The notes under the pieces: generated by a model
Database searches by the model: none
The model's input: only the letters and a program-made list of their open reading frames with translations
What the model was told of the DNA's origin: nothing
Program-made: the position numbers and the translations under genes
Origin: Thetidibacter halocola
GTDB lineage: Bacteria > Pseudomonadota > Alphaproteobacteria > Rhodobacterales > Rhodobacteraceae
Assembly (NCBI RefSeq): GCF_018224955.1
Contig: NZ_JAGTUU010000003.1
Coordinates: 186,001-250,000, forward strand
DNA: 64,000 bases
Reading direction: 5' to 3'
Shown: positions 1 to 44,895 of the stretch, in pieces
Layout of the letters: each line of letters opens with the position of its first letter
How positions within the stretch are numbered: the stretch's first letter is position 1

Positions 1-977
1 TCTACGTGCGGTCGGTGGACCTCTACGACGGGCTGACCCGCGACCTGAACTTCAACCTGATGCAGTCGAAACGGACGATGATCGACGTGCTCCAGACCTG
101 GGGTATGGTGCGCGACCGGCGCAGGCGGCGGCTGATCATGGACATCTACGGCTCGACATACCAGGACATATCGGTGGACGAGCTGCGCCGCCGCGTGCCC
201 TTGCTGACGGGCGGCGGGCCGGACAGCCGCCTGCCGATCCTGGGGGCCGCCGTGCACACGGATGCCTCGGTCAACCGGCACGACGCGGTTGCCTGGGGCT
301 ATGCCCGGGCGGCGGATGCGCTGGGGGTCGAGATCCACCAGAAGACGCCGGTGACGCAGCTCTTGCGCGGCCCGGATGGCGCCATTTCGGGCGTCGAGAC
401 GCCGCGCGGCACGGTGCGTGCGCCCATCGTGGCGCTGGCGGTCTCGGGCCACACCACGACGCTGACCGAAACCGTGGGCCTGCGCCTGCCGCTGCGCACG
501 ATCAACCTGACGGCCTTCGTCTCGGAGCCGGTGAAACCGGCGCTGGACGTGATCGTGAACTGCCCCGACCTGGGCGTCTACCTGTCGCAATCCGACAAGG
601 GAGAGATGGTGATCGGCGGAGCGCCCGACCTCGGCCAGTCCTTCCGCCGCGACATCAAGCAGGGGGTTTTCGAGCACACCGTCGCCATGCTGCTGGAGCT
701 GTTCCCCGCCTTCCGCCGGCTGAAGCTGCTGCGGCAATGGGGCGGACACCTGGACATGGCGCATGACGCGTCGCCCATCGTCTCGAAAACCGACATTCCC
801 GGCCTGATCGTCAGCGCCGGCTGGTGGGGGGGATACAAGGCGATCCCGGCAGGGGGCGCGGGCCTTGCACACCTGATCGCCACGGGGCGGCCCGACCCGC
901 TGACAGCGCCCTTCGGCCTGAACCGCTTTCGCCATCTCGACTACGTGGTCGAGACCGGCACGACTACGGCGCGCTAG
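1..977 (+). CDS. soxB: Sarcosine oxidase subunit beta (5' partial)
   Basis: C-terminal about 325 residues of the beta subunit of heterotetrameric sarcosine oxidase, which oxidises sarcosine to glycine and passes the one-carbon unit to tetrahydrofolate. The family is usually a little over 400 residues, so about 90 N-terminal residues with the GxGxxG FAD motif lie outside the window. The reading frame is open to base 1; the GTG at 6 is internal. The stretch NRHDAVAWGYARAADALG holds the His that, by family knowledge, binds FMN covalently. The C-terminal GWWGGYKAIPAGG motif closes the DAO-type FAD fold. First visible gene of the canonical soxB-D-A-G order, 4 nt before soxD. Confidence 0.95.
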   Translation, partial: YVRSVDLYDGLTRDLNFNLMQSKRTMIDVLQTWGMVRDRRRRRLIMDIYGSTYQDISVDELRRRVPLLTGGGPDSRLPILGAAVHTDASVNRHDAVAWGYARAADALGVEIHQKTPVTQLLRGPDGAISGVETPRGTVRAPIVALAVSGHTTTLTETVGLRLPLRTINLTAFVSEPVKPALDVIVNCPDLGVYLSQSDKGEMVIGGAPDLGQSFRRDIKQGVFEHTVAMLLELFPAFRRLKLLRQWGGHLDMAHDASPIVSKTDIPGLIVSAGWWGGYKAIPAGGAGLAHLIATGRPDPLTAPFGLNRFRHLDYVVETGTTTAR

Positions 978-35400: not shown

Positions 35401-36168
35401 CTAGGACAGACTCTGCGACCGCCGGGCATGCAGCCAGCCCAGCGTGTCGTCGGAAGAGCCGCCGGGCTTGTATTCCGCGCCCAGCGGCCGGCTCCAGCCC
35501 AGCGCGGCGATGCGGTCGAAGACATAGTTGTAATCCATCTCGCCATGATCCGGCGCGCCACGGTCGGGCACGGCGGCGAACTGGATATGGCCGATCAGCG
35601 GCAGCAGCGCGGCAAGCCGCGTGACCACATCGCCCTCTGTCCGCCCGACATGGTAGCAGTCGAACATCAGTTTCATGCCCGGCAGGTCCAGATCTGCCAG
35701 CAATGCAGCGGCCTGGTCGGTCGTGCGCAGGAAATAGCCCGGTGCGTCGTGACGGTTCAGCGGCTCGATCAGCAGGGTGATCGCATCCGGGCAAGCCGTG
35801 CGGGCATACCGCAGGTTCGCCAGGAAAGCCGCGTGGGCCTCTGGTCCCTCGGCGAAACCGGCCATGACATGGATCGCCTGCGCGCCCACGGCGACGGCAT
35901 AGGCGATGGCCTGGTCGATGGCGGCGCGGGCCTCTGCCTCGCGGCCGGGCAGGGCGGACAGGCCGTTCTCGCCCGGATTGCCGCGGATCGTGTTCAGCCC
36001 CAGCATCGGCAGGCCGGTCTGGTCCAGCGCAGCGCGCACCTCGGCGGCAGGCGTGTCATAGGGCCAGTGGCATTCGACCGCGTCGAAGCCTGCCGCATGG
36101 GCGGCACGGATCGCGTCCGGCAGCGGGCGGTCGGCCCAGAGAAAGCCGAGATTGGCAGAGAATTTCAT
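35401..36168 (-). CDS. otnI: 2-oxo-tetronate isomerase (hydroxypyruvate isomerase family)
   Basis: 255-residue TIM-barrel isomerase (AP endonuclease 2 / Hyi family). Active-site segments include FDAVECHWPYDTPAAEVRAA, ITLLIEPLNRHDAPGYFL (catalytic Glu), LMFDCYHVGRTEGDVV and GAEYKPGG (second Glu). With otnK and otnC beside it, the expected reaction is 2-oxo-tetronate to 3-oxo-tetronate. ATG 36168 is chosen because it overlaps the otnC stop by 4 nt; ATG 36177 is possible. Confidence 0.9.
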   Translation of the reverse strand: MKFSANLGFLWADRPLPDAIRAAHAAGFDAVECHWPYDTPAAEVRAALDQTGLPMLGLNTIRGNPGENGLSALPGREAEARAAIDQAIAYAVAVGAQAIHVMAGFAEGPEAHAAFLANLRYARTACPDAITLLIEPLNRHDAPGYFLRTTDQAAALLADLDLPGMKLMFDCYHVGRTEGDVVTRLAALLPLIGHIQFAAVPDRGAPDHGEMDYNYVFDRIAALGWSRPLGAEYKPGGSSDDTLGWLHARRSQSLS

Positions 36169-36815
36169 CCGTCCCACTCCACGTCGAACCTGGTGACGAC
36201 CGCGCGCACCTGCGCCTCGGTCAGCATCCGGGGATCCAGGCCGCGCGTCAGCATCGCCAGACGCGCGGTGTTTTCCAGTTCCTCGACCGCGTTGCAGGCG
36301 GCCTCCACGTCCTTGCCGGCTACCACCGGCCCATGATTGGCCAGCATCACCGCCGCGCGTTTCCCGGCCAGCCCGCGCACCGCCTCGCCCATCGCCGGGT
36401 CGCCGGGCAGAAAGAAGGGCAGCAGCGTGACCCGCCCCAGCAGCATGATCCCGTAGGGCGTGAGCGGCGGCAGGAAGTCGTTCGCGTCCACGTCAGGCAT
36501 CATCGACAGAGCGACGGAATAGCACGAATGCAGGTGCACCACCGCCCCCGTGGCCGAGCGTGTCTCGTAAAAGGCACTGTGCAGGGGCATTTCCTTGGTC
36601 GGCCTGTCGCCATCGACATGCCGTCCCGCCGCGTCGAACCGGCTGAGACGCGCCGGGTCGAGCCGGCCGAAACTGGTGCCCGTGGGGCTGACCAGCAATC
36701 CGCCATCCTCGGTCCGGGCCGAGATGTTGCCGGTGCTGCCATGCGTCAACCCCCGGTCAAAGATCGACCGAGCCAGCAGGCAGATGCGCTCGCGCAGGGC
36801 GGCCTCGGCGCTCAT
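36165..36815 (-). CDS. otnC: 3-oxo-tetronate 4-phosphate decarboxylase (class II aldolase fold)
   Basis: 216-residue class II aldolase/adducin-fold protein. Metal-site residues are in AVVHLHSCYSVALSM and VMLANHGPVVAGKDVEAACN, and phosphate-site residues in HGSTGNISARTEDG. In the DUF1537 acid-sugar pathways this enzyme decarboxylates 3-oxo-tetronate 4-phosphate to dihydroxyacetone phosphate. ATG 36815 overlaps otnK by 4 nt. Confidence 0.92.
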   Translation of the reverse strand: MSAEAALRERICLLARSIFDRGLTHGSTGNISARTEDGGLLVSPTGTSFGRLDPARLSRFDAAGRHVDGDRPTKEMPLHSAFYETRSATGAVVHLHSCYSVALSMMPDVDANDFLPPLTPYGIMLLGRVTLLPFFLPGDPAMGEAVRGLAGKRAAVMLANHGPVVAGKDVEAACNAVEELENTARLAMLTRGLDPRMLTEAQVRAVVTRFDVEWDG

Positions 36816-38074
36816 ATCCGATCCAGCGCGTCGGAAAAGAACGTGGGCGCGCCGAAATTGCCGGATTTCAGCGTCAGCGCGATCCGGTGCCCGCCGCTGT
36901 CGCACCAGGTCCAGGGCACGCCGGGCGCGATCTCGGGGCCGATATCCAGCCGGTCGACGCCCAGCGCCTGCGTGACCGCGCCCGAAGTCTCGCCGCCGGC
37001 GACAACGATCCGCCGCGCGCCCGCGTCGCGCGCCGCCACGGCGCAGGCGGCCAGCGCCTGTTCGACGATCTGCCCGGCGCGGTCGCGGCCTAGCCTGTCC
37101 TGCGCTTCGCGCACGGCGGCGGGTTCAGCGGTGGCGTAGAGCAGCGGCGCCCGATCCAGGTCCTGCTGCGCCAGCCAGTCCAGCGCCGGTTGCACCCCGC
37201 CCTCTGCCAGCGCCAGCGGGTTCAGCCGAAAGGCGGGCACGCCAAGGTCGCGATAGGCGGCGACTTGCGCGTTGGTCATCGCCGAACAGCTGCCCGACAG
37301 GACGATCGCCGCACGGGGCAGGTCTGGCGCCGCGACGGGGGCAGCGTCGAGGCCCGGCAGGCCCTCGGCGCGGTAGAGCGCGGGCAGGGGCATGGCCAAA
37401 GCGCTGCCCCCGGTCAACAGCGGCATGTCGCGGCAGGCCTCGGCGATCACCGCGAGGTCGTCATCGGCCACCGCATCGACCACCACATGCGCCACGCCCT
37501 CGGCCCGCAGTCTTGCCAGCGCGTCGTGCAGCGCGGGCGCACCCGCCGCCACGGTCAGCCGGTCCGCCAGCCCGACAGGCCGCGTCACCTGCGGCTCCAG
37601 CAGGCGCATCAGGTTGGAATCGCGCATCGGCGTCAGGGGATGGTCCTTCATCGGGCTTTCGGCCAGCGGCTGCCGCCCGACAAAGAGGTTGCCCATGAAA
37701 ATCGCCCGGCCGTTCTCCGGGAAGGCCGGGCAATAGATCGTCTGGTCGGTGTCGAGGTCTTTCATCAGCGCCTCGGCGACCGGGCCGATATTGCCCTCAG
37801 GCGTGGAATCGAAGGTCGAGCAATATTTCCAGAAGAACCGCTGCGCCCCCGCCTGCCGCAGCCAGTCTAGCGCGGCGCGACACTCGGCAACCGCCTGCGC
37901 GACCGGCGCGGTCCGCACCTTGAGGGCGATCACCTCAAAGGCGGCGGTCTGCGAGGGTGGGACGGACGGCACGCCGATCCGCAGCGACACCGCCACGCCG
38001 GAGCGCGCCAGCAGCCCGGCGAGGTCGGTCGCGCCGGTGAAATCGTCGGCGATGCAGCCCATAACGGTGCGCAT
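36812..38074 (-). CDS. otnK: 3-oxo-tetronate kinase (DUF1537 / four-carbon acid sugar kinase)
   Basis: 420 residues, family length. The N-terminal substrate domain starts MGCIADDFTGATDLAGLLA and contains FWKYCSTFDSTPEGNIGPVA. The C-terminal nucleotide domain has RRIVVAGGETSGAVTQALGV and IAPGVPWTWC. It phosphorylates 3-oxo-tetronate at C4. It lies between ltnD (27-nt gap) and otnC. Confidence 0.94.
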   Translation of the reverse strand: MRTVMGCIADDFTGATDLAGLLARSGVAVSLRIGVPSVPPSQTAAFEVIALKVRTAPVAQAVAECRAALDWLRQAGAQRFFWKYCSTFDSTPEGNIGPVAEALMKDLDTDQTIYCPAFPENGRAIFMGNLFVGRQPLAESPMKDHPLTPMRDSNLMRLLEPQVTRPVGLADRLTVAAGAPALHDALARLRAEGVAHVVVDAVADDDLAVIAEACRDMPLLTGGSALAMPLPALYRAEGLPGLDAAPVAAPDLPRAAIVLSGSCSAMTNAQVAAYRDLGVPAFRLNPLALAEGGVQPALDWLAQQDLDRAPLLYATAEPAAVREAQDRLGRDRAGQIVEQALAACAVAARDAGARRIVVAGGETSGAVTQALGVDRLDIGPEIAPGVPWTWCDSGGHRIALTLKSGNFGAPTFFSDALDRI

Positions 38075-38101
38075 GGCGTGGTCCTTTCGTGACAGGCCGG
38101 T

Positions 38102-38998
38102 TCAGCCCTTTTCGGGCGGCAGGTCCAGCCCGGCATTGCGGGCATAGACCTTGGCGATGGCAGCGTCGTCCTGGTGGCCCAGGCCCATACCTACCGCGAC
38201 CATGTATTGCTGCAAGGCCGCAGCGGTGATCGGCGCCGAGAACCCGGCCGTCTTGGCGATGTCCAGCACGATGCCCAGGTCTTTTGGCCAGATGTTGATC
38301 TGGCTGCGGGGCGTATAGTCGCCGTCTACGATATGGGGCGCGCGGTTCTCCAGCATCCAGCTGGTGCCGGCGCATTGGCTGATGACCTCGACGAACTTTG
38401 CCGGTTCCACGCCCTGCGTCATGCCGAAGGTCAGCGCCTCTGCCATGGTGGCGATATGCACGCCCGCCAGAAGCTGGTTGACCGCCTTCATCGCCGAGCC
38501 GGGCCCGGCTTCGGACCCCAGTTCGAAAACCGTTGTGGCGCAGGCGTCGAGCACCGGGCGCGCGGCGGCAAAGGCCTGTGGGGTGCCCGCCGCCATCATT
38601 GACAACGCGCCCTGCGCCGCCTTGGCCGCCCCGCCCGAGATCGGCGCATCCAGGTAATGCACGCCCGCCTCGGCACAGCGCGCCTCCATCGCGCGGGCAA
38701 AGTCGGGCGGCACCGTGGCGCAGGAAATCACCACCGCGCCGGGCCGCAGCCCGGACACCGCGCCGGTCTCTCCGAACAGAACCGCCTCTGTCTGGGCGGC
38801 GTTCAGCACCACCACCACCAGCGCATCCAGGTCGCGGGGTACTTCGCCCGTCTGCCCGCCCTCGGTCGTAAAGCGGTGGACGGCATCCGCGTTGATGTCG
38901 ACGCCCCAGGTGCGATGCCCCGCCCGCAGGCAGGATTGCGCCATGCCGTAGCCCATCGATCCCAGGCCGATCACGGCCGTCCTGAATTGCGTTGTCAT
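38102..38998 (-). CDS. ltnD: L-threonate dehydrogenase
   Basis: 298-residue beta-hydroxyacid dehydrogenase. The NAD motif is VIGLGSMGYGMAQSCL (residues 9-24), the substrate segment DAPISGGAAKAAQGALSMMA, and the catalytic Lys is in GSAMKAVNQLLAGVHIATMA. The LtnD assignment rests on its linkage to otnK-otnC-otnI, which together convert L-threonate to DHAP plus CO2. D-threonate or erythronate specificity cannot be excluded. First gene of the operon; divergent from the AcoR-like regulator. Confidence 0.9.
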   Translation of the reverse strand: MTTQFRTAVIGLGSMGYGMAQSCLRAGHRTWGVDINADAVHRFTTEGGQTGEVPRDLDALVVVVLNAAQTEAVLFGETGAVSGLRPGAVVISCATVPPDFARAMEARCAEAGVHYLDAPISGGAAKAAQGALSMMAAGTPQAFAAARPVLDACATTVFELGSEAGPGSAMKAVNQLLAGVHIATMAEALTFGMTQGVEPAKFVEVISQCAGTSWMLENRAPHIVDGDYTPRSQINIWPKDLGIVLDIAKTAGFSAPITAAALQQYMVAVGMGLGHQDDAAIAKVYARNAGLDLPPEKG

Positions 38999-39077: not shown

Positions 39078-39161
39078 CGCTTCTTTTCCGACCTTGGCAG
39101 GACTCGGCGGATGCTGCCGACCGTGCTAGGGTCAGCGCGCGCGTTGCGATGGGAGGAGCGG

Positions 39162-40904
39162 ATGCGCGATATCGACCACGTGACAGAGATCGACCGCGTG
39201 CTGCGCGGGCAGGAAACCGGGCGCGACCGGGTGGTGGCCGACAGCTGGCGGCGCTGTGTCGAATCCTATGGCATGGACCCCGCGCGCCCCGATCCGGCGC
39301 ATATCGTGACCGAGACCGAGTTGCGCGCCCACCGCGAACAGGCCGAACGCCTGATCGCCACCGCGCGCTCGGGCCTGCATGCGCTGTTCCGGCAGGTGGC
39401 GGGGCAGAATTACGTCCTGCTGCTGGCCGATGCCAAGGGTGTCTGCGTCGACTTCTTCGGCGACCCGAGGTTCGAGGACGACCTGCGGCAGGCGGGGCTT
39501 TACCTCGGCTCCGACTGGTCCGAGGACCTGGCCGGCACCTGTGGCGTGGGCTCTTGCCTGATCACCGGCCAACCGGTGACGATCCACCAGTCCGACCATT
39601 TCGGGCTGGCGCATACGCCGCTGTCCTGCACCGCCGCGCCGATCCGCGACACGCGGGGTGAGTTGACGGCGGTTCTGGACATCTCGCTGTTGCGCTCGCC
39701 CTCGCCGAAATCCTCGCAGAACCTGGCGATGAGCCTTGTCACCGCCGCCGCGCGGCGGGTCGAGATGGCGAACCTGATGGCGATGACGCGGCGCGACTGG
39801 GTGCTGCGTTTCTCCACCAGCCCCGAATTCCTCGAGGTCGATCCCGAGGCGGCCGTGGCGCTGGACGGGTCGGGGCGGATCCTGGGGATGACGACCGGCG
39901 CGCAGCGCGCCCTTGACCCCGAGGGCACGGGCGCGCTGATCGGCACCCACATCGACGACTGGATCGAGATGAGCGTGGACGACCTGCCCGACCTGATGCG
40001 CGGCCGTCCGACCGAGGACCGCGTGCTGCGGCACAAGGACGGGCGCGGCCTGTTCGGCCATGCCATCGCGCCGCAATCGCCACACAGCGCCGCCGCGTTG
40101 CGCCGCCAAGAGCCCGACCTGCCCGGCGCGCTGGGCAGTTTCGCCGGGTCCGACCCGGCGCTGGCGCGGCTGCTGGGGCGGGCGGCGCGTCTGGCGACGA
40201 CACCGGTGCCGCTGCTGGTCGTGGGCGAGACCGGGACCGGCAAGGAAAAGCTGGCCCGTGCCATCCATGTCTGCGGGCCGCAGGGGCGCGGCTTTCACGC
40301 GCTGCGCTGCGCCGGGCTGTCCGACCTCGCGGCGCTGGATGAGGCGACGGCGGGCACGCTGTTCCTGCGCGGCATCGAGGATCTGACGCCCGAGGCGCAG
40401 GGCCGGCTGCTGGCGCTGCTCGACCGGCGCGGCGACCTGCGGGTGATCGCCGCGACCCGCGCGGCACCGCCCGCCTTGGCGGACATCCTGCGCGACGACC
40501 TGTTCCACCGCATCGCCGGCGCCACCCTGTCCCTGCCGCCGCTGCGCCACCGCGCCGATTTCGACTGGCTGCTGGAGCGCCTTCTGCGCCGCCGCTCGGC
40601 CGACGATGCACGGCTTACCCCGGCGGCACGGGCCGAGCTGAAATCCCGCGACTGGCCCGGCAACATCCGCGAGCTGGAACGCGCCCTGGACGTCGCTCTG
40701 GCCGTGGCCGGAGGGCCGGTGATCGACCTGCCGGACCTGCCCGATCCGCCCTGCGCCGCCGTGCCCGAGGACCGCGCCGAGGATCTCGAGGCGTTGCTGA
40801 ATGCCTGCGGCTGGAACATGGCGCAGGCGGCGCGGCGGCTGGGCGTCAACCGCTCGACAGTGCTGCGGCGCATCCGCAAGGCCGGGCTGACCCCGCCCGC
40901 CTGA
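39162..40904 (+). CDS. AcoR-like regulator with degenerate sigma-54 interaction domain
   Basis: 580 residues. A GAF-type sensor half covers about 50-200 (LLLADAKGVCVDFFGDPRFE, GTCGVGSCLITGQPV), followed by a PAS-like stretch. The AAA+ domain has an intact Walker A, GETGTGKE (355-362). The roughly 30 residues that normally carry the GAFTGA sigma-54 contact loop are missing, and Walker B reads TLFLRGIEDL (399-408) where TLFLDEI is expected. The Fis-type helix-turn-helix NMAQAARRLGVNRSTVLRRI ends the protein. It probably does not activate sigma-54 RNA polymerase. ATG 39162 follows GGGAGGAG. It is divergent from ltnD and upstream of the monooxygenase gene. Confidence 0.9.
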   Translation: MRDIDHVTEIDRVLRGQETGRDRVVADSWRRCVESYGMDPARPDPAHIVTETELRAHREQAERLIATARSGLHALFRQVAGQNYVLLLADAKGVCVDFFGDPRFEDDLRQAGLYLGSDWSEDLAGTCGVGSCLITGQPVTIHQSDHFGLAHTPLSCTAAPIRDTRGELTAVLDISLLRSPSPKSSQNLAMSLVTAAARRVEMANLMAMTRRDWVLRFSTSPEFLEVDPEAAVALDGSGRILGMTTGAQRALDPEGTGALIGTHIDDWIEMSVDDLPDLMRGRPTEDRVLRHKDGRGLFGHAIAPQSPHSAAALRRQEPDLPGALGSFAGSDPALARLLGRAARLATTPVPLLVVGETGTGKEKLARAIHVCGPQGRGFHALRCAGLSDLAALDEATAGTLFLRGIEDLTPEAQGRLLALLDRRGDLRVIAATRAAPPALADILRDDLFHRIAGATLSLPPLRHRADFDWLLERLLRRRSADDARLTPAARAELKSRDWPGNIRELERALDVALAVAGGPVIDLPDLPDPPCAAVPEDRAEDLEALLNACGWNMAQAARRLGVNRSTVLRRIRKAGLTPPA

Positions 40905-40911
40905 CGCGGAT

Positions 40912-40936
40912 GTTGCGCCCCTGTTGCGCGCGCAAC
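40912..40936 (+). promoter_or_regulatory. TTGCGC repeat and perfect palindrome upstream of the monooxygenase
   Basis: GTTGCGC at 40912 is followed 11 bp later by the perfect 14-bp palindrome GTTGCGCGCGCAAC (40923-40936). Related words CGCAAC and GTTGCC appear further down before the gene at 41058. This fits an upstream activator site for the AcoR-like protein. No TGGC-N9-TTGC sigma-54 promoter element is visible in the gap. Confidence 0.45.
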
Positions 40937-41057
40937 GCCGCGCGCCCCGTGCGCCGGTTTTGTCCCTGCCGCAACGTCAGCCCCGTTGCCCGCGCGGCCC
41001 GAGCCGGTCCAGCCTGTGCACCGGAGGAATCCGCAACCACAGTAAAGGGAGGAGCAC

Positions 41058-42857
41058 ATGCTCGATTCGACACTGGCCGACCAGACCCAGGCCTTTCTCG
41101 ACGATTTCGACGCCGCGCTGGAGGCGGGCGACACGGCCCGCGCGCGCGAGATGTTCGCGGACGACTGCTATTGGCGCGACCTCGTGACCTTCACCTGGAA
41201 CATCAAGACGGTCGAGGGCAAGGCGCAGGTGGAGGACATGCTGAAGCACCAGCTGGCCACCACCAAACCCACCGGCTGGGCGCTGGCAGAGGGCGAGCTG
41301 CCCACCGATGAGGGGGGCGTCGTCACCGCCTGGATCACCTTCGAGACGGCGGTGGCGCGCGGCTATGGCCTGATCCGGATCAGGGAGGGCAAGATCTGGA
41401 CCCTGCTGACCACGATGGTGGAACTCAAGGGCCACGAGGAACCCAAGGGGTTCGCCCGCCCGCTGGGCGCCAAGCACGGCGCCGGCAAGAACCGCACCAC
41501 CTGGCTGGAGGAACGCCAGAAGGAAGAAAAGGAACTCGGCTACACGAAACAACCCTATGTCGTCATCATCGGCGGCGGACAGGGCGGCATCGCGCTTGGC
41601 GCGCGGCTGCGCCAGCTGGGCGTGCCGACGATCATCGTGGAAAAGAACGACCGCCCCGGCGACAGCTGGCGCAAGCGCTACAAGTCGCTCTGCCTGCATG
41701 ACCCGGTCTGGTATGACCATCTGCCGTATATCAAGTTCCCCGAGAACTGGCCGATCTTCAGCCCCAAGGACAAGATCGGAGACTGGCTGGAAATGTATAC
41801 CAAGGTGATGGAGCTGAACTACTGGACCCGCACCACGGCCAAGTCCGCCCGGTATGACGAGAAGACCAAGGAATGGATCGTCGTCGTGGACCGCGATGGC
41901 GAGGAAGTGGTGCTGAAGCCGAAACAGCTGGTCATGGCCACCGGCATGTCCGGAAAGGCGCGGATGCCGAATTTCCCCGGCATGGACAAGTTCAAGGGCG
42001 ACCAGCACCATTCCAGCCAGCATCCGGGCCCGGACCGCTACAAGGGCAAGAAGGCCGTGGTGATCGGCTCGAACAACTCGGCCCATGACATCTGCGCCGC
42101 GCTCTGGGAAAACGACGTGGACGTGACGATGGTGCAGCGGTCCTCGACCCATATCGTGCGATCCGACACGCTGATGGAGGTGGGGCTGGGTGCGCTTTAC
42201 TCCGAAGAGGCGGTGCAGAACGGCGTGACGACTGAGAAGGCCGACCTGATCTTTGCCTCTCTGCCCTACGCGATCCTGCATGAATTCCAGATCCCGGCCT
42301 ATGAGGAGATGAAGAAGCGCGATGCCGATTTCTACGCCGGGCTGGAAAAGGCCGGCTTCTGGCTGGACTGGGGCGACGACGGCTCTGGCCTGTTCATGAA
42401 ATACCTGCGCCGCGGCTCGGGCTATTACATCGACATCGGCGCAAGCCAGCTGATCATCGACGGCAAGATCAAGCTCAAGCGCGGACAGGTGGTCAGCGTC
42501 GATGAGACCGGCGTCAACCTCGACACCGGAGAGCACCTCGACGCCGACCTGATCGTCTACGCCACCGGCTATAACTCGATGAACGGCTGGGTGGCCGACC
42601 TGATGGGCCAGGAGACGGCCGACAGGTTGGGCAAGGTCTGGGGCCTCGGCTCGGACACCACCAAGGATCCGGGCCCCTGGGAGGGCGAACAGCGCAACAT
42701 GTGGAAGCCGACGCAGGTCGAGGGGCTCTGGATGCATGGCGGCAACCTGCACCAGTCGCGGCACTATTCGCAGTTCCTGGCGCTGCAACTGAAGGCCCGG
42801 ATGGAGGGCATCCCGACCCCGGTCTACGGCCTCCAGGAGGTGCATCACCTGGCCTGA
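41058..42857 (+). CDS. Flavin-containing monooxygenase with N-terminal NTF2/SnoaL-like domain
   Basis: 599 residues. The first about 130 resemble a SnoaL/NTF2-like barrel (AFLDDFDAALEAGDTARARE, FTWNIKTVEGKAQVEDML). An FMO-type two-dinucleotide core follows: FAD motif VVIIGGGQGGIALGARLRQL near 168-187 and NADPH motif AVVIGSNNSAHDICAAL near 332-348. The sequence FKGDQHHSSQHPGPDRYKGK precedes the second motif as in flavin monooxygenases. Likely chemistry is NADPH-dependent Baeyer-Villiger, N- or S-oxygenation; the substrate is unknown. GGGAGGAG precedes ATG 41058. It ends in a good terminator. Confidence 0.9.
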   Translation: MLDSTLADQTQAFLDDFDAALEAGDTARAREMFADDCYWRDLVTFTWNIKTVEGKAQVEDMLKHQLATTKPTGWALAEGELPTDEGGVVTAWITFETAVARGYGLIRIREGKIWTLLTTMVELKGHEEPKGFARPLGAKHGAGKNRTTWLEERQKEEKELGYTKQPYVVIIGGGQGGIALGARLRQLGVPTIIVEKNDRPGDSWRKRYKSLCLHDPVWYDHLPYIKFPENWPIFSPKDKIGDWLEMYTKVMELNYWTRTTAKSARYDEKTKEWIVVVDRDGEEVVLKPKQLVMATGMSGKARMPNFPGMDKFKGDQHHSSQHPGPDRYKGKKAVVIGSNNSAHDICAALWENDVDVTMVQRSSTHIVRSDTLMEVGLGALYSEEAVQNGVTTEKADLIFASLPYAILHEFQIPAYEEMKKRDADFYAGLEKAGFWLDWGDDGSGLFMKYLRRGSGYYIDIGASQLIIDGKIKLKRGQVVSVDETGVNLDTGEHLDADLIVYATGYNSMNGWVADLMGQETADRLGKVWGLGSDTTKDPGPWEGEQRNMWKPTQVEGLWMHGGNLHQSRHYSQFLALQLKARMEGIPTPVYGLQEVHHLA

Positions 42858-43315: not shown

Positions 43316-44143
43316 ATGATCAAGACAGAACTGCGCCGCGCCGTCGACCCGCGCCACGCCCGAACCATGGACACCGACGCGCTGCGCGCCGAGTTCCTGG
43401 TCGAAGACCTGTTCACGCCGGACGCGGTGCGGCTGGTCTATTCACAGTATGACAGGATGATCTTCGGCGGCGCGGTGCCCGCAGGCGGGCCGCTGACCAT
43501 CGACGCGGTGCCCGAGACCGGCACGCCCTCGTGGCTCGACCGGCGCGAGGCCGTGCTGGTCAACCTCGGGACCGATGGCGCGGTCGCAGCTGGCGGCGAA
43601 ACCTACACGCTTGGCCGGTGCGACATGCTGTATCTCGGCATGGGGTCGGGCCCCGTCACCGTCTCGGGCGCGGGGGCGCGATTCTATATCGTCTCGGCCC
43701 CGGCGCACCGGATGATCCCGGCGCGGCGCGTGACGCTGGACGAGGCCGCGCGCCTGCCGCTGGGCCACCGCGACACAGCGAACGAGCGGGTCGTCAACCA
43801 GATGATCCACCCGGCGGTGATGGAAACCTGCCAGATCGTCATGGGTTTGACGCGGCTTGCCACCGGGTCGGTCTGGAACACCATGCCCACCCATACGCAT
43901 GAACGGCGGTCCGAGGCCTATCTCTATCTCGATATCCCCGAGGACCAGTTCATCCTGCACCTGATGGGAGAACCGGACCAGACGCGCCACCTGGTCGTGC
44001 GCAACGAGCAGGCGGTGCTGTCGCCGCCCTGGTCGATCCATTGCGGGGCGGGCACCGCCTCCTACGCCTTCATCTGGGCGATGGCGGGCGACAATGTCGA
44101 TTACACCGACATGGACATGGTCGCGATGGGGGACCTGAAGTGA
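43316..44143 (+). CDS. kduI: 5-dehydro-4-deoxy-D-glucuronate isomerase
   Basis: 275-residue bicupin isomerase of normal length. It converts 5-keto-4-deoxyuronate, from unsaturated uronates of pectin or glycosaminoglycans, to 3-deoxy-D-glycero-2,5-hexodiulosonate. Zinc-site residues are in WNTMPTHTHERRSEAYLYLD, and a late His in SPPWSIHCGAGTASYAFIWA. Start ATG 43316 follows AAAGGAAAC. It overlaps kduD by 4 nt (GTGA). Confidence 0.95.
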   Translation: MIKTELRRAVDPRHARTMDTDALRAEFLVEDLFTPDAVRLVYSQYDRMIFGGAVPAGGPLTIDAVPETGTPSWLDRREAVLVNLGTDGAVAAGGETYTLGRCDMLYLGMGSGPVTVSGAGARFYIVSAPAHRMIPARRVTLDEAARLPLGHRDTANERVVNQMIHPAVMETCQIVMGLTRLATGSVWNTMPTHTHERRSEAYLYLDIPEDQFILHLMGEPDQTRHLVVRNEQAVLSPPWSIHCGAGTASYAFIWAMAGDNVDYTDMDMVAMGDLK

Positions 44144-44895
44144 GCCGCTTTTCGCTGGACGGAACCCGCGCCTTCGTCACCGGCGCCAATACCGGCATCG
44201 GACAGGCCATCGCGGTCGACCTGGCGCGGCACGGCGCCCACGTGGTCGCGGTGGGACGCTCCTCGATGGAGGAAACGCTGCAAGCGGTCGCGCAGGCCAG
44301 CGGGCGGGCCGATGTCGTGCAGGCCGACCTGGGCAGCGTTGCCGGGGCGGTGGCCGCCTTTGACGAGGCCGGGTCGCGGTTCGGCCCGATCGACACGCTG
44401 GTGAACAACGCCGGCATCATCCGCCGCGCCGACAGCCTGGATTTTACCGAGGCGGACTGGGACGCGGTGATGGACATCAACCTCAAGGTCGTCTTCTTCC
44501 TGTCGCAGGCCTTTGCCCGGTCGCGGATCGCGGCGGGGCAGGGCGGCAGCATCGTCAACATCGCCTCGCTTTTGTCCTTTCAGGGGGGAATCCGCATCCC
44601 CTCCTACACCGCGTCGAAAAGCGGTGTCGCGGGACTGACCAAGACGCTGTCGAACGAATGGTCGGCGAAGGGCATTACCGTCAACGCCGTGGCGCCGGGC
44701 TATGTGATCAGCAACAACACCGAGGCGCTGCGCGCCGATCCCGAGCGCAACCGCGCCATCCTCGACCGCATCCCGATGGGGCGCTGGGCCGAACCGGTGG
44801 ACATCGCCGGCGCGGTGACGTTCCTCGCCTCGCCCGCCGCGCGCTATGTCACCGGGATCACCTTGCCGGTGGATGGTGGCTGGCTGGGTCGCTGA
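44140..44895 (+). CDS. kduD: 2-dehydro-3-deoxy-D-gluconate 5-dehydrogenase (SDR)
   Basis: 251-residue short-chain dehydrogenase. The NAD motif is TGANTGIGQAIAV (about 13-25), NNAG follows at about 88, and the catalytic Ser-Tyr-Lys lie in IVNIASLLSF and PSYTASKSGVAGLTKTL. The C-terminal PVDIAGAVTFLASPAARYVT and ITLPVDGGW are standard. It reduces the KduI product to 2-keto-3-deoxygluconate. GTG 44140 overlaps the kduI stop, giving the family length. No KdgK or KdgA gene is nearby. Confidence 0.94.
   Translation: MSRFSLDGTRAFVTGANTGIGQAIAVDLARHGAHVVAVGRSSMEETLQAVAQASGRADVVQADLGSVAGAVAAFDEAGSRFGPIDTLVNNAGIIRRADSLDFTEADWDAVMDINLKVVFFLSQAFARSRIAAGQGGSIVNIASLLSFQGGIRIPSYTASKSGVAGLTKTLSNEWSAKGITVNAVAPGYVISNNTEALRADPERNRAILDRIPMGRWAEPVDIAGAVTFLASPAARYVTGITLPVDGGWLGR

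Follow-up and report, generated by a model that had tools for sequence, protein, structure and literature searches.

A GAFTGA-less AcoR/DhaR-like regulator beside a flavin monooxygenase gene, and its probable departure from sigma-54

How does a transcriptional regulator built like a sigma-54 activator work when the parts that would contact sigma-54 are missing? This question is raised by a gene (39162–40904, + strand, as are the other features of the regulator, its operator and its target given below) located in the window, i.e., the whole 64-kb stretch of DNA analyzed here. Translation, Pfam searches and an orthologue alignment define a product of 580 aa with a GAF sensor, a degenerate AAA+ domain and a Fis-type helix-turn-helix (HTH), which is the AcoR-like domain order (PF01590, PF00158/PF14532, the AAA lid PF25601, and PF02954). 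The start ATG at 39162 agrees with the aligned N termini of the orthologues, and a further in-frame ATG lies upstream, at 39111. The GAF domain (residues 65–203; 39354–39770; PF01590, E 7.3e-12) is part of a highly conserved sensor half, and the HTH covers residues 542–573 (40785–40880; PF02954, E 6.9e-9). The PF00158 match is split into two pieces, because the middle of that domain is missing.

An earlier note made from the sequence of this locus had claimed that the GAFTGA loop (L1) is absent and that the Asp-Glu of Walker B is replaced by Arg-Gly, and alignment confirmed both statements. The junction of the missing L1 falls at about residues 387–392 (40320–40337), as judged against relatives possessing the loop, and 37 residues separate K361 from T399 (the first residue of TLFLRGIEDL) versus 60–61 in 19 relatives with intact L1, a class that takes in variants such as GSFTGA, GSFSGA, GAFTGG, GTWTGG, and NSFTGA. 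The normal value is therefore about 60, and the figure of about 70 ascribed to sigma-54 activators in that note was too high. A GAFTGA equivalent elsewhere, which it had named as a refuting finding, is absent, as no GAFTGA-like motif is present in the remainder of the 580-aa protein. Walker B reads LFLRG, with R403 and G404 (40368–40373) in place of the acidic pair. The note's reading of the motifs was correct, but it overlooked a second deletion, that of loop L2 (pre-sensor I), whose junction lies at about residues 421–424 (40422–40433) in the alignment with L1-bearing relatives. The power stroke is proposed to reach sigma-54 through these two loops, L1 and L2 (PMC7175178).

What is left of the domain is considerable. 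Walker A (GETGTGKE, residues 355–362; 40224–40247) and the Fis domain are both kept, as had been stated, and so are the arginine-finger residues R444 and R450 (region 40491–40511) and the sensor II region WPGNIREL with R503 (40653–40676). Hence, of the hallmarks of a functional sigma-54 activator (bacterial enhancer-binding protein, bEBP), Walker A and sensor II are present, while the GAFTGA-containing L1, the Walker B Asp-Glu and an L2 of normal length are not. In the AlphaFold model (mean pLDDT 73; AAA part mostly 78–92) the AAA+ core is predicted to be retained, with only a short turn where L1 would sit, and the top PDB matches of a structure search were sigma-54 activators and their relatives (e.g., ZraR, NtrX, and NtrC1), with PspF lower down. 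A bEBP fold devoid of GAFTGA, combined with a retained Fis HTH, is what characterizes a GAFTGA-less, sigma-70-type bEBP derivative.

The proposal that the deletion might be a feature of a clade was examined with an orthologue alignment. A search of 295 genomes from the same family, with E 1e-30 as the limit, found relatives in 44 of them; full-length orthologues are encoded at 20 loci, spread over 19 genomes when that of the window is counted, and show 63–81% identity, the window itself aside. A scan of GTDB genomes gave 203 confirmed relatives, of which the best 80, all with names, were used; their genera include Roseibium, Stappia, Mameliella, Salipiger, Paracoccus, Thioclava, and Celeribacter, besides others. 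The resulting 100 regulators (20 family loci plus these 80) comprise 93 distinct sequences. None of the 93 carries GAFTGA or L1, so that the loss can be attributed neither to chance nor to a sequencing error; the Walker B Glu is likewise found in 0 and the Asp in 7. L2 has 21 residues in 79 of the 93 and 20–31 in the remainder, versus 33 in 19/19 relatives with intact L1. The other motifs were kept to different degrees, i.e., the Walker A Lys in 92, the first arginine finger in 63, the second in 93, and the sensor II Arg in 92.

With the two loops that contact sigma-54 and the catalytic residue of Walker B gone, neither ATP hydrolysis nor remodelling of sigma-54 is to be expected. The P-loop, the second arginine finger and sensor II are kept, so ATP is most likely still bound between subunits, in line with the earlier suggestion that the protein perhaps binds ATP. 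An alternative, which we regard as possible but distinctly less probable, is a vestigial AAA+ domain: the protein would act as a plain GAF-Fis ligand-sensing regulator, ATP would have no role, and the P-loop would persist as a scaffold. Conservation of the domain has indeed been relaxed. The mean pairwise identity among the 93 orthologues is 0.74 for the sensor half, 0.55 for AAA, and 0.75 for the HTH, compared with 0.44, 0.57, and 0.48, respectively, among the 19 intact relatives and with 0.73, 0.69, and 0.67 among five intact relatives that are about as divergent; in the clade, AAA is therefore now clearly the least conserved domain, and the order of conservation is inverted. Rough dN/dS medians from 486 pairs (crude owing to the high G+C content) are 0.45 for AAA and 0.25 for the sensor, i.e., about twofold higher, so the domain appears relaxed but not free. 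Furthermore, 30/93 orthologues have lost the first arginine finger, and in one orthologue (L020, same stretch as L097) the Walker A Lys is an Arg, which weakens the case for a required role of ATP. Two GAF-Fis regulators (L247 and L248; 368 and 385 aa) have no AAA+ domain, yet adjoin the same monooxygenase, whose promoter there has no sigma-54 box; the AAA+ domain may therefore be dispensable. At L247 a second, GAFTGA-bearing regulator lies 1.4 kb from the enzyme gene, behind the AAA-less one. Against a mere vestige speak the near-invariant Walker A Lys, second arginine finger and sensor II, which persist while nearby motifs decay, as well as the AAA+ fold recovered in both the model and the structure search. 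We therefore prefer an AAA+ domain that binds ATP.

The likely target of the regulator is the gene downstream (41058–42857), encoding a 599-aa type II flavin-containing monooxygenase with a SnoaL-like N-terminal domain, as indicated by Pfam, by the match to PDB 8acs (E 2.3e-287) and by its conserved position. A relative of this enzyme, JsFMO, oxidizes ketones and sulfur compounds (PMC10028610). The monooxygenase gene follows the regulator on the same strand at 20/20 loci of the family search and at 78 of the 80 named loci (the best 80 of 203); at a 79th (L087) the operator and the start of the monooxygenase gene are visible before the contig ends, and only L139 is a real exception, with neither operator nor monooxygenase nearby.

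The space between the two genes holds three half-sites in the arrangement GTTGC-N5-7-GTTGC-N4-GCAAC. The palindrome GTTGC-N4-GCAAC precedes the monooxygenase gene at 98 of the 100 loci (89 distinct promoters), starting 118–149 bp (median 127) before its ATG and within 118–136 bp in 87/89, while the additional upstream GTTGC was found in 87 of the 89. In the window this conserved operator, GTTGCGCCCCTGTTGCGCGCGCAAC, occupies 40912–40936, with the palindrome at 40923–40936; the latter is the sole one of its kind within the 64 kb, and the whole pattern has no other exact copy in the 4.84-Mb genome, so the site looks like a dedicated local switch. Its designation as an operator is based on positional conservation, and the Fis domain is the presumed ligand of the site.

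An upstream operator of this kind bears on the sign of the regulation. It is unlikely, in our judgment, that the regulator represses the monooxygenase gene rather than activating it. For repression it can be said that no strong core promoter was found (see below), so that its basal strength could be high or low, and that the related TyrR both activates and represses. Nevertheless, the operator keeps a nearly fixed position 118–149 bp before the ATG and about 90 bp upstream of the candidate transcription start, a placement commoner for activators, and the relatives with intact L1 are accompanied by sigma-54 promoters, which require activation. Activation of the monooxygenase gene is thus the reading retained here.

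The promoters were scanned with sigma-54 and sigma-70 matrices built from general consensus frequencies. The absence of sigma-54 boxes from the neighbouring promoter, as asserted in the earlier note, was corroborated: upstream of the monooxygenase gene of the window no regular-expression match to a −24/−12 promoter was obtained, and none of the 89 clade promoters contains a convincing box. In the latter set, sigma-54 scores of at least 12 were reached by 0 and of at least 10 by 2 promoters, no more than in shuffled sequences (0.7% and 2.2%), and 0 TGG-N8-TTGC-like sites were found between operator and ATG. In contrast, all 12 monooxygenase promoters located beside regulators with intact L1 scored 10.8–17.0, their boxes being 48–120 bp before the ATG. 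The clearest case is L182, in which the orthologous monooxygenase gene (72%) is directly behind a GAFTGA-bearing relative and TGGCACGCGACTTGCC is found 48 bp before the ATG. L242, counted among the 12 and left out of the trees, has its regulator gene split over two frames beside the monooxygenase gene (in G844), by a frameshift or a sequencing error. Outside the 12 counted, strong sigma-54 boxes with no regulator nearby are present at L249 and L250, a score of 10.5 was obtained at L251, where the regulator is 3.8 kb away, and at L065 the box is placed right behind the regulator gene, 3.1 kb before the enzyme gene. The matrix scan gave no sigma-54 box at L253, L255, L256, L257, L247, L248, and L064.

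We also considered a conserved TGG-like triplet at +63 from the palindrome start as a relic −24 box, and rejected it: GG at +64/65 occurs in 32/89 promoters and GC at the −12 place in 12/89, and both occur in 4/89 versus 4.3 expected, so there is no sign of a paired −24/−12 box.

A sigma-70-type core promoter is only hinted at. Counted from the start of the palindrome, a T.G (+63/+65) and an A...T (+88/+92) are conserved in position; as hexamers they are 18 bp apart and in the window correspond to a weak candidate promoter (40986–41015; −35-like TTGCCC, 18 bp, −10-like CAGCCT). A strict scan of the window promoter revealed no classical sigma-70 consensus, and the sigma-70 matrix scores of the 89 promoters did not exceed those of shuffled sequences. 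The best −10 fits fall at +86..88 in 23/89 promoters versus 3.8 expected, a number inflated by related sequences.

Genomes devoid of sigma-54 are particularly informative. The gene rpoN is present in the window's genome; however, it is absent (as judged by PF04552 and PF04963) from 7 of the 18 other orthologue-bearing genomes (G153, G099, G148, G088, G138, G002, and G215), which are 99–100% complete. No GAFTGA-coding site was found in any of these seven, and all of them keep the regulator, the operator and the monooxygenase. By the same profiles, rpoN was detected in 19/19 tested genomes with intact-L1 relatives. When the window's genome and three genomes found later are included, 7/22 orthologue genomes are rpoN-less (Fisher p 0.01, uncorrected for kinship). 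From these genomic data the regulator module appears to be independent of rpoN.

That the regulator might still be linked with sigma-54 in some unusual way, e.g., by forming mixed rings with a partner that has GAFTGA, was also weighed. Apart from rpoN, the window's genome does encode one enhancer-binding-protein relative with GAFTGA (L001; C20:294862), the only one it has, L002 having GAFPGA instead, and in Caulobacter DNA-binding mutants of the GAFTGA-less NtrC raise sigma-54 transcripts (PMC12421884). Still, the rpoN-less genomes by themselves make sigma-54-dependent action unlikely, as no partner with GAFTGA exists there, and the 89 promoters offer no convincing −24/−12 box, so we regard such a linkage as highly improbable.

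A regulator that lost its sigma-54 loops and catalytic residues, and that was kept beside the monooxygenase gene even in bacteria without sigma-54, probably uses ordinary RNA polymerase. We consider it quite probable that the protein is an AcoR/DhaR-like ligand-sensing regulator that has moved off sigma-54, that it uses a sigma-70-type holoenzyme, and that its AAA+ domain is a non-hydrolysing ATP-binding or assembly module. The GAF half would detect a small molecule, the Fis domain would bind the GTTGC operator that precedes the monooxygenase gene, and ATP held between subunits would serve assembly on the three half-sites; from about 127 bp before the ATG, the regulator would then recruit or stimulate RNA polymerase containing a sigma-70-family factor, by which the monooxygenase gene would be activated. 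The earlier proposal that the protein works with the housekeeping sigma factor instead of sigma-54 has accordingly fared differently in its two parts: work without sigma-54 is supported (0/93 orthologues with L1, 89 promoters, and seven rpoN-less genomes), whereas dependence on the housekeeping sigma factor is what we infer.

The route by which this state was reached was followed in trees built from the sensor and HTH columns only, in which 14 of the 80 named loci were included; in a second tree, 14 long or distant rows were left out. The L1-less clade nests inside the L1-bearing regulators. Its nearest relatives, L036 and L183 (support 98/92), have no L1 but keep both the Walker B DE and L2, so L1 was lost first. 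Another regulator without L1, L034 (DK at Walker B), groups with the GAFTGA-bearing L035, L181, L182, and L239 (100/99), and a single clade of all L1-less rows was rejected (AU p 0.002; L034 and L036 are long branches); L1 was therefore lost at least twice. The enzyme promoter of L034 has no sigma-54 box and carries, 121 bp ahead of the ATG, a palindrome of the form GTTGC-N7-GCAAC. Hence each of the two losses goes with a missing sigma-54 box and with a GTTGC..GCAAC palindrome at a similar distance before the gene, 118–149 bp in the clade and 121 bp at L064. Comparison of these loci shows that the ancestor of the clade was a regulator of the sigma-54 type, L1 included, that controlled the same enzyme, and that the −24/−12 box was lost alongside the loop. 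The loss of L1 is not tied to the monooxygenase, since L036 faces dehydrogenase genes, by eye resembling the acetoin/pyruvate type. Several TGTTGCA half-sites were noticed between L036 and the dehydrogenase E1-like genes (L066, 7860–7910).

For a broader reading the scales are, in our view, evenly balanced: one regulator-enzyme module would have switched naturally and repeatedly, at least two times, from sigma-54 to a sigma-70-type polymerase, losing L1 first and then L2 and Walker B, with the −24/−12 promoter replaced by one governed by a fixed GTTGC operator, with the residual AAA+ domain as an ATP-gated assembly switch operating without hydrolysis, and with the module outliving the loss of rpoN. 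Each step is testable, because extant intermediates are available, as are outgroups with intact regulators beside the same enzyme gene, an independent second loss, and genomes without rpoN.

Regulators of this kind are already known, as the precedents of TyrR, DhaR, HupR, VpsR, and NtrC demonstrate. TyrR, DhaR, HupR and, by sequence, VpsR are enhancer-binding-protein relatives that lost contact with sigma-54 (PMC3162934), and the NtrC proteins of Rhodobacter and Caulobacter are reported to work with sigma-70 RNA polymerase (PMC10274813, PMC12421884), so the parallels with TyrR-like proteins and Rhodobacter NtrC drawn in the earlier note were apt. E. coli DhaR, the top NCBIfam match (E 9.2e-44), shares the sensor, AAA+ and Fis domains and is listed as lacking a functional GAFTGA and depending on sigma-70 (PMC3162934); it has a different target. 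Identity as DhaR itself (NF008485) was rejected, with 149.8 bits against a curated cut-off of 551. TyrR, HupR, and VpsR likewise lost the GAFTGA element, but they have other sensors, targets and architecture, and the passages of PMC3162934 that treat them describe no linked promoter switch. NtrC of Rhodobacter capsulatus and Caulobacter shares the deletion of L1/GAFTGA and the alphaproteobacterial background, but these proteins are phosphorylation-driven response regulators with unrelated sensor and target. The GAFTGA-bearing AcoR-like regulators L182, L238, and L239 have the same domain order, 47–49% protein identity and an adjacent orthologous enzyme gene, and differ in the intact GAFTGA and DEIG and in the sigma-54 promoter of that gene.

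The present case stands apart from these systems in that L1, L2 and Walker B have all been lost, the promoter co-evolved with the regulator, L1 was lost independently a second time, and the module persists in genomes without rpoN. GAFTGA-less enhancer-binding proteins are known singly, and a joint move of regulator and promoter from sigma-54 to sigma-70 has not been well traced. Among the papers listed for AcoR plus flavin monooxygenase none was relevant by title, and none of the titles or abstract openings listed for the group dealt with GAFTGA-less AcoR regulators of Rhodobacterales, which is not proof of absence. Names of the type "sigma-54-dependent regulator" are likely wrong for this group.

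On the opposite strand of the window (35401–38998), a divergent cluster encodes, according to Pfam, an NAD-binding dehydrogenase, an SBD_N/NBD_C kinase, a class II aldolase, and an isomerase-like TIM barrel, and presumably resembles acid-sugar catabolism of the erythronate/threonate type; behind the monooxygenase gene (43316–44895, + strand) are genes for a KduI-like isomerase and a short-chain dehydrogenase. In the 29 related loci searched, neither a cluster of the former type nor KduI was found.

Elsewhere in the window's genome, three further enhancer-binding-protein relatives are without L1 and L2, and an NtrX-like one is without L1; the four are located at L005 (C1:569036), L004 (C1:223606), L007 (C16:497045), and L003 (C1:564957). 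The NtrC-like L005 has neither L1 nor L2 and keeps the Walker B DE, which is missing from the clade described here. L1 and L2 have been lost together in more than one subfamily of enhancer-binding proteins.
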